Assembly (NCBI GenBank): GCA_902621725.1
Contig: CACNND010000002.1
Coordinates: 64,049 to 128,048 of the forward strand
Reading direction: 5' to 3'
DNA: 64,000 nucleotides
From: an uncultured Alphaproteobacteria bacterium
GTDB taxonomy: Bacteria > Pseudomonadota > Alphaproteobacteria > HIMB59 > GCA-002718135
The notes beneath the pieces were generated by a model, which was not told where the DNA came from, did not search any database, and was given only the letters and a program-made list of their open reading frames with translations. The translations under genes were made by a program, and so were the position numbers. Of the stretch, positions 22,290 to 22,921 are shown one piece after another; the first letter of the stretch is position 1; the number at the start of each line of letters is the position of its first letter.

Positions 22290-22340
22290 TGGAGCGGGCG
22301 AGGAGTTTCGAACCCTCGAACTCAACCATGGCAAGGTTGC
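22290..22340 (-). pseudogene. Displaced 3' half of tRNA-Gly (CCA end to anticodon stem)
   Basis: These 51 bases match the 3' part of the intact tRNA-Gly at 22847-22921 in 45 positions, including CCA, the acceptor strand, the TTCGAA loop, the anticodon-stem GGTTG and the GCC anticodon. Homology stops just 5' of the anticodon stem; no D arm or 5' acceptor strand follows within the next 180 bases. Three of the six differences hit the T stem, so it could not fold into a normal tRNA. Its position downstream in the tRNA's reading direction is what integration into a tRNA 3' end leaves behind. Confidence 0.8.
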
Positions 22341-22524
22341 CGAATACATCGTTTGCTTATTATTTACCGAATATTGGAACAATATTTGTAAAAAATAAAT
22401 ATATTTGAATCCAAAGGGCTACTTGGAGGCTACGTAAAAAAATACTTATTTATTATAATATTAAATATTACGCTTTTTTATAATTATTTGATTTGGTAAT
22501 TTTATTAAATCACAAGGGGGTAAA

Positions 22525-22785
22525 ATGTTACAAATAATTAGTCACGAAGTAAAAGATGTTGATGTATGGTTATCTTTTAACGATGAAAGAGTGAAAACTT
22601 TCTCAAAGTTTGCTGATAACATTGTTGATTTTGTAGATACTGAAAAATCAAATTATGTTTCAATATGTTATAATGTTTTAGATGAACAAGAAATGGACAA
22701 AGTACTTGGCTCTGAAGAAGTAAGAAATGAGGCTGAAAAGCATGGTGTTGTTTTTGATACTCTGAAAAGATTTACTCAAAAATAA
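22525..22785 (+). CDS. Small ABM-like (dimeric alpha/beta barrel) protein
   Basis: The 86-residue protein begins LQIISHEVKDVDVWLSFND and continues with strand-helix-strand periodicity ending in GSEEVRNEAEKHGV. This resembles short antibiotic-biosynthesis-monooxygenase-like or related ferredoxin-fold proteins (start 'xxxHxVxDxxxW', later 'SxExxxxxxxxGV'). No catalytic residue can be named. An AAGGGGG ribosome site lies 6 bases before the ATG, one of the strongest in the window. It is the only gene between the tRNA-Gly and its displaced fragment. Confidence 0.65.
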   Translation: MLQIISHEVKDVDVWLSFNDERVKTFSKFADNIVDFVDTEKSNYVSICYNVLDEQEMDKVLGSEEVRNEAEKHGVVFDTLKRFTQK

Positions 22786-22846
22786 TTATAAAGAATAAGG
22801 CTAATGGCTACTCTAGGGCTACTTATTTCTTGGGATGTTTAATTTT

Positions 22847-22921
22847 TGGAGCGGGCGAAGGGATTCGAACCCTCGACTTCAACCTTGGCAAGGTTGCGCT
22901 CTACCCCTGAGCTACGCCCGC
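22847..22921 (-). tRNA. tRNA-Gly (GCC)
   Basis: A full cloverleaf of 75 nucleotides reads leftward: 7-bp acceptor GCGGGCG/CGCCCGC, D arm with GCTC/GAGC, anticodon arm CAACC-TTGCCAA-GGTTG with anticodon GCC (22887-22889), T arm with TTCGAAT, discriminator T and an encoded CCA at 22847-22849. It sits between the end of the carotenoid operon and the candidate mini-island. Confidence 0.97.

Follow-up and report, generated by a model that had tools for sequence, protein, structure and literature searches.

What does the short piece of DNA between an intact tRNA gene and a displaced copy of its 3′ half represent? Such an interval was present in the window, by which we mean the whole 64-kb stretch of DNA that was analysed. 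A first-pass annotation had offered three options for it: a deletion remnant of a larger island, a satellite mobilised in trans, or a cassette kept for its one gene. The last two, taken jointly, gave the best fit. We consider it very probable that the interval is a 557-bp mobile cassette without an integrase, situated at the 3′ half of tRNA-Gly(GCC), moved by a tyrosine integrase supplied in trans and kept for a useful gene. The features of the locus were as follows.

22290–22340, minus strand: displaced tRNA-Gly 3′ half, from the CCA end to the anticodon stem; putative distal core (attR side); 45/51 identical
22341–22846, no strand: cassette body (the mobile unit, 506 bp), with sharp boundaries; 12 copies of 506–549 bp in different arrays
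22417–22435, minus strand: distal arm pair ACGTAGCC-TCC-AAGTAGCC, 11-bp spacing, about 76–95 nt before the distal core; found by pattern search
22514–22520, plus strand: Shine-Dalgarno-like AAGGGGG, 4 nt before the ATG
22525–22785, plus strand: cargo gene (86 aa), the sole plausible gene between the tRNA copies
22806–22824, minus strand: tRNA-proximal arm pair AAGTAGCC-CTA-GAGTAGCC, 11-bp spacing, 22 nt after the CCA end
22847–22921, minus strand: intact tRNA-Gly(GCC); ARAGORN; Rfam RF00005, 70.9 bits
22976–23794, minus strand: blh, beta-carotene 15,15′-dioxygenase, the conserved 5′ neighbour of the tRNA; PF15461, E = 2e-47

ARAGORN and Rfam agreed on the complete tRNA-Gly(GCC) that had been annotated, and found it to be the single tRNA in the 64-kb window. 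This gene is the likely attachment target, with its 3′ half as one recombination core (attL side). The blh gene was found 5′ of tRNA-Gly in most same-genus loci and marks the fixed side of the locus. Adjoining blh on this side, ORFs between 23796 and 27224 (minus strand) resembled carotenoid biosynthesis genes, as assigned by eye.

The annotated match of 45 of 51 bases between the displaced half and the intact gene was reproduced, the two being separated by 506 bp measured from the CCA end of the tRNA, and it extended to 59 nt at 86% identity. As the second-best ungapped match to the tRNA half in the whole window was just 26/52, this match is not due to chance. The last base of the anticodon loop was altered in the displaced half (TTGCCAA to TTGCCAT) and there were five other changes; its counterparts in most relatives were identical to the tRNA at 51/51 positions. 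If the anticodon loop is the overlap region, this altered base means that the window copy may excise poorly or no longer. Together, the 506-bp body and one 51-bp core make up the full interval of 557 bp. The body encoded one small gene with a ribosome site, as had been annotated. No integrase lay between the two tRNA repeats, again in agreement with the annotation, and PF00589 had zero matches in the window's genome, which is 81.6% complete. The cassette likewise gave no relaxase or phage match and had no replication or packaging gene.

Cassette arrays at tRNA-Gly in related genomes

The comparison set consisted of 102 same-genus genomes, which are incomplete assemblies (completeness about 53–96%); up to 20 kb around tRNA-Gly was compared in 88 stretches and the copies of the tRNA 3′ half were mapped. 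A search with the window interval revealed the 3′ half to be repeated at the same locus in many same-genus genomes. Between one and four displaced 3′ halves, most of them matching the tRNA at 51/51 positions, accompanied 58 of the 85 intact tRNA-Gly loci, and the remaining 27/85 had none. The displaced halves bounded 95 cassettes, 428 bp to 13.7 kb long, which belonged to 65 sequence families and were arranged in variable order; 33 of the 95 were shorter than 1 kb. The comparison with relatives that had been proposed in the first-pass annotation thus yielded tRNA-Gly sites without a displaced copy, islands of larger size, and identical 3′ halves of tRNA-Gly that enclosed different cargo. The most distal 3′-half fragment of each array was more decayed than the interior fragments (p=0.0016), which is the expectation if new cassettes insert next to the tRNA.

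The fragment could also be read as a conserved non-coding RNA of another kind, or as a duplicated tRNA that has nothing to do with integration. A few arrays (L067, L070, L113 and L118) did contain a second tRNA-Gly sequence that was complete. However, Rfam assigned the displaced fragment to no family and matched the intact tRNA alone, and the copies varied in number and position and flanked different cargo. This variable presence and cargo already refutes such a reading, to which we give next to no credence.

A full tyrosine integrase was encoded by 9 of the 95 cassettes and an N-terminal integrase fragment by 8 more, with no integrase homologue in the other 78. A PF00589 survey of the genomes revealed phage-type integrases and one core recombinase, the latter in most genomes; at the tRNA-Gly locus it returned the identical nine integrases. 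Past the displaced copy at +757 in L089, the array was adjoined by several small paralogous proteins in a row (clusters c37 and c52) that look secreted. Five genomes from another family of the order (G112, G125, G132, G133 and G161) contained the tRNA-Gly core pattern in two or three copies; these core copies suggest that the same tRNA-Gly site is used outside the family.

The cassette with the 86-aa gene recurred as a precise unit of 506–549 bp, with the same two ends, in 12 arrays in which its neighbours differed. Five copies were nearly identical to that of the window: L052 (99.2%), L053 (99.0%), L051 (98.8%), L056 (98.8%) and L054 (98.2%). The 2-kb host flanks of these carriers were 82.0%, 85.2%, 84.9%, 84.3% and 85.6% identical to those of the window, respectively, a divergence of 14–18%. 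The 300 bp before the tRNA showed 82–84% identity and the cassette 95.6–100%, right up to both edges; identity stopped at both att cores and clear homology was absent beyond the displaced fragment. Counted from the tRNA, the 86-aa-gene cassette was followed by a sulfotransferase cassette in L051, L057 and L058, and the order was reversed in L059 and L063. Mapped onto a tree built from 83 host flanks, the 86-aa gene (16 carriers) required 14 changes in presence and the sulfotransferase 11, counts that are indicative as the flank tree is itself open to recombination. The cassette has been transferred between lineages. In L062 the 86-aa gene adjoined tRNA-Gly without a detectable displaced 3′ half, and the distal core there seems to have been lost.

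These data bear on the first of the three options, in which a larger island bearing an integrase shrank to its ends and a single gene and no longer moves. The decayed distal core of the window (45/51) is compatible with this, as is cassette L070.1, which has no integrase but whose type A ends and cargo families c36 and c71 also occur in integrase elements. From the latter it follows that some integrase-less cassettes are probably deletion derivatives. A unit with the same ends in 12 arrays, next to different neighbours and with 98–99% identity set against 14–18% flank divergence, argues instead that the compact form itself has moved. A one-off remnant is thus unlikely, and its description as dead is largely refuted; an origin of the cassette by ancient deletion is possible. 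We regard the deletion remnant as improbable overall.

Paired arm sites and the possible source of the integrase

The two ends of the window cassette each contained a pair of short direct repeats with 11-bp spacing. The 65 cassette families were examined for 7-mers that held three or more G or C residues and recurred without mismatch at a given spacing. Pairs spaced by 11 bp were found at 26/65 proximal ends and 33/65 distal ends, compared to 3 of 983 interior windows, and 7-mer repeats at other spacings were few. The same arm motif occurred at the proximal and distal ends in 29/65 families, compared to 3.7% of mismatched pairings; in the controls, it did so in 1/65 with the distal end reverse-complemented and in 0/47 interior comparisons. 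About 15 sequence types of arm pair were distinguished. About half of the cassette families had no clear arms at one or both ends, which indicates that some cassettes have decayed. Repeated arm sites are used by arm-binding tyrosine integrases, the lambda and Tn916 enzymes for example, and the paired repeats described here are predicted to be integrase arm-type sites.

Pairs of this spacing also adjoined integrases at tRNA-Arg, tRNA-Gln and tRNA-Leu; none were found in the 43 kb surrounding the core recombinase. The genome of the window had a second integrase-less cassette on another contig, at tRNA-Ser(GGA) (L244, 1591–3040; G000 contig C4). Each of its ends had GGCACACATATGGCACAC arm pairs, and it held small genes resembling those for membrane proteins. 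None of the other 28 tRNA loci of this genome had an arm-paired cassette. In L051, L057 and L060 the sulfotransferase cassette contained a complete tRNA-Ser(TGA) beside its distal arms, as did another cassette in L066, and other cassettes held just part of such a tRNA.

The arm sites also bear on whether ordinary homologous recombination, through conserved flanks or the 51-bp tRNA repeats and with no site-specific enzyme, distributed the cassettes. The neighbouring regions of the tRNA-Gly locus were likewise highly variable, and perfect 51-bp repeats could recombine at a low rate. Against this, the shared tracts stopped at the cores on both sides, the paired sites were enriched at the ends only, and integrase genes were present within nine elements of the same arrays. 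Some cassettes could have spread by homologous recombination through longer flanks; as an account of the locus it is very unlikely. Site-specific integration into the tRNA 3′ end, as the annotation had proposed, is strongly supported by the variable sites and cargo, the breaks at both cores and the paired arms at the ends.

Comparison of arm types linked integrase-encoding with integrase-less elements. The TGTGACA type was common to six integrase elements and five integrase-less cassettes, and the CTCCGACA type to the integrase element L088.1, at its proximal end only (its distal end was of another type), and three integrase-less cassettes. As these types are common to both kinds of element in the same arrays, mobilisation in trans is supported for these two types. 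The enzymes linked to the arrays matched Phage_integrase with an N-terminal arm-binding region. Among the TGTGACA-sharing integrase-less set was a cassette that encoded an alternative oxidase along with a flavodoxin-like and an ABM protein. Respiratory cargo of this composition characterised a mobile cassette family of type A and ~1.99 kb (L061, L076 and L124). As to the integrase elements themselves, that of L056 carried Type I restriction-modification genes, that of L068 a Type III methyltransferase, that of L069 a gene for a DndB-like protein and that of L073 one for a DUF5906 protein.

For the AAGTAGCC arm type of the window, we infer action in trans. The patterns GTAGCC-N5-GTAGCC and, more strictly, AGTAGCC-N4-AGTAGCC were used to look for a helper, and no integrase element with arms of this type was found among the 102 same-genus genomes. 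The matches comprised the 86-aa-gene cassette, L066.1 and integrase-less cassettes at tRNA-Gln and tRNA-Ser, and nothing else; a reversed control pattern gave 0 matches in the same-genus genomes. The window-type cassette also occurred in arrays without any integrase. The eight N-terminal integrase fragments, situated at proximal cassette ends (L058, L061, L067, L072, L080, L084, L090 and L118), covered the arm-binding region (about 44–95 profile positions) without the catalytic domain, and several adjoined ACGCTCCA-type arms. Such fragments may represent remnants or, alternatively, free arm-binding proteins.

In the preferred reading, a tyrosine integrase from another element, either transient or located elsewhere in the cell, would act in trans by binding the paired AAGTAGCC arm sites at both cassette ends, with recombination taking place across the anticodon stem-loop core. 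In circular form the cassette would travel from one tRNA-Gly site or array to another, and every insertion would restore the tRNA and leave the older 3′ half at the far end, which would account for the tandem stacking of cassettes. It would then be retained owing to the usefulness of its single gene. The circular intermediate and a vector between cells are further parts of this scheme that we infer.

No relatives of the 86-aa gene were found in viral contigs or phage records. A possible viral link through the exact tRNA-Gly core was rejected, as the sole viral contig containing it had a complete tRNA in unrelated GC-rich DNA. A type A integrase had no viral relative in this search, and the L088 integrase had just two, at 29% identity.

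Relation to known elements, and the cargo gene

The closest known kinds of element are CIMEs, additive flexible genomic islands and tycheposons. A CIME is an element without integration and transfer genes in which attL and attR are kept, and tandem accretion of such elements has been described (PMC5704250). The window cassette resembles one in having no integration or transfer genes while keeping two tRNA-Gly 3′-half cores and arm pairs at both ends. However, CIMEs are described as decayed ICEs or IMEs that are moved in cis with a neighbour (PMC5704250), whereas the 0.5-kb, one-gene unit was found intact in many arrays, in varied orders and with both arm pairs kept, which suggests that it moves as a unit.

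Repeated tRNA ends also mark the additive flexible islands of Ca. Methylopumilus fGI-2 (PMC10872708), where islands of 330 bp to 42 kb hold many genes of unknown kind, and of Alteromonas fGI1 (PMC4119200). Like these, the arrays described here (95 cassettes of 65 families at 85 loci) place variable cassettes at one conserved tRNA with repeated 3′ ends. In contrast, as far as consulted, PMC10872708 and PMC4119200 mention neither paired arm sites, nor arm types shared with integrases, nor transfer of a single-gene cassette across lineages. Tycheposons of Prochlorococcus are tRNA-associated cargo islands linked to tyrosine recombinases in streamlined ocean bacteria, as cited in PMC10872708 and PMC11389934, and PMC10872708 gives them as 4–200 kb in length and with a recombinase. 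They share with the window cassette a tRNA boundary with a partial tRNA copy, and differ from it in that the cassette is 506 bp with no tyrosine recombinase, 78/95 cassettes being integrase-free and 33/95 below 1 kb.

Integron cassettes, including CALINs, form tandem arrays of small, often one-gene cassettes without an integrase (PMC11389934). The tRNA cassettes are similarly small, one-gene and in tandem, have no integrase of their own and would be moved by one in trans; however, in place of attC/attI they have a tRNA 3′ half as their core, accompanied by arm sites, and Rfam finds the tRNA alone. Phage satellites such as PICMIs and VEIMEs are small marine elements that depend on a helper (PMC10803314). 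Array element L073.1, with an integrase and a DUF5906 protein, is reminiscent of these, whereas the window cassette is devoid of replication and packaging genes and the searches linked it to no phage. What is new here is the occurrence of tRNA cassettes that are interchangeable, have no integrase, often hold a single gene and possess matched arm sites. We found no published account of paired arm sites that match between ends, or of a one-gene cassette followed from array to array, in a literature search that took in few subscription journals and secondary accounts of tycheposons.

Streamlined ocean bacteria are thought to be poor in mobile elements, yet their populations have very large flexible gene pools. 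The arrays provide a concrete route by which single genes can be gained, lost and reordered at fixed tRNAs with no need for an integrase kept by the host. We tentatively raise the possibility, in our view slightly less likely than not, of a genus-wide, integron-like exchange on tRNA 3′ halves, in which integrase-less cassettes of one to a few genes would be transferable, tRNA-Gly, tRNA-Gln and tRNA-Ser would serve as array sites, and the ~15 arm types would act as address codes for a compatible helper integrase. The arm types lead to a testable prediction of which integrase pairs with which cassette, and the 11-bp-spaced pairs are a simple signature for spotting such cassettes in other genomes.

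The 86-aa gene was found in 17 of 110 family genomes, every one in a single genus. Across its copies dN/dS was about 0.13; the gene is under purifying selection, and the protein is thus maintained. Domain and family searches with the protein gave no significant family. A structural model of low confidence (pLDDT 61) had the order strand-helix-helix-strand-strand-helix-helix-strand, and its best solved-structure matches in Foldseek were ferredoxin-like proteins, NIPSNAP and proteins of the ABM type. The product therefore probably adopts, on this model, a ferredoxin-like (ABM/NIPSNAP-type) alpha-beta fold. An ABM-domain protein was likewise encoded by a tRNA-Gln cassette with GTAGCC arms.
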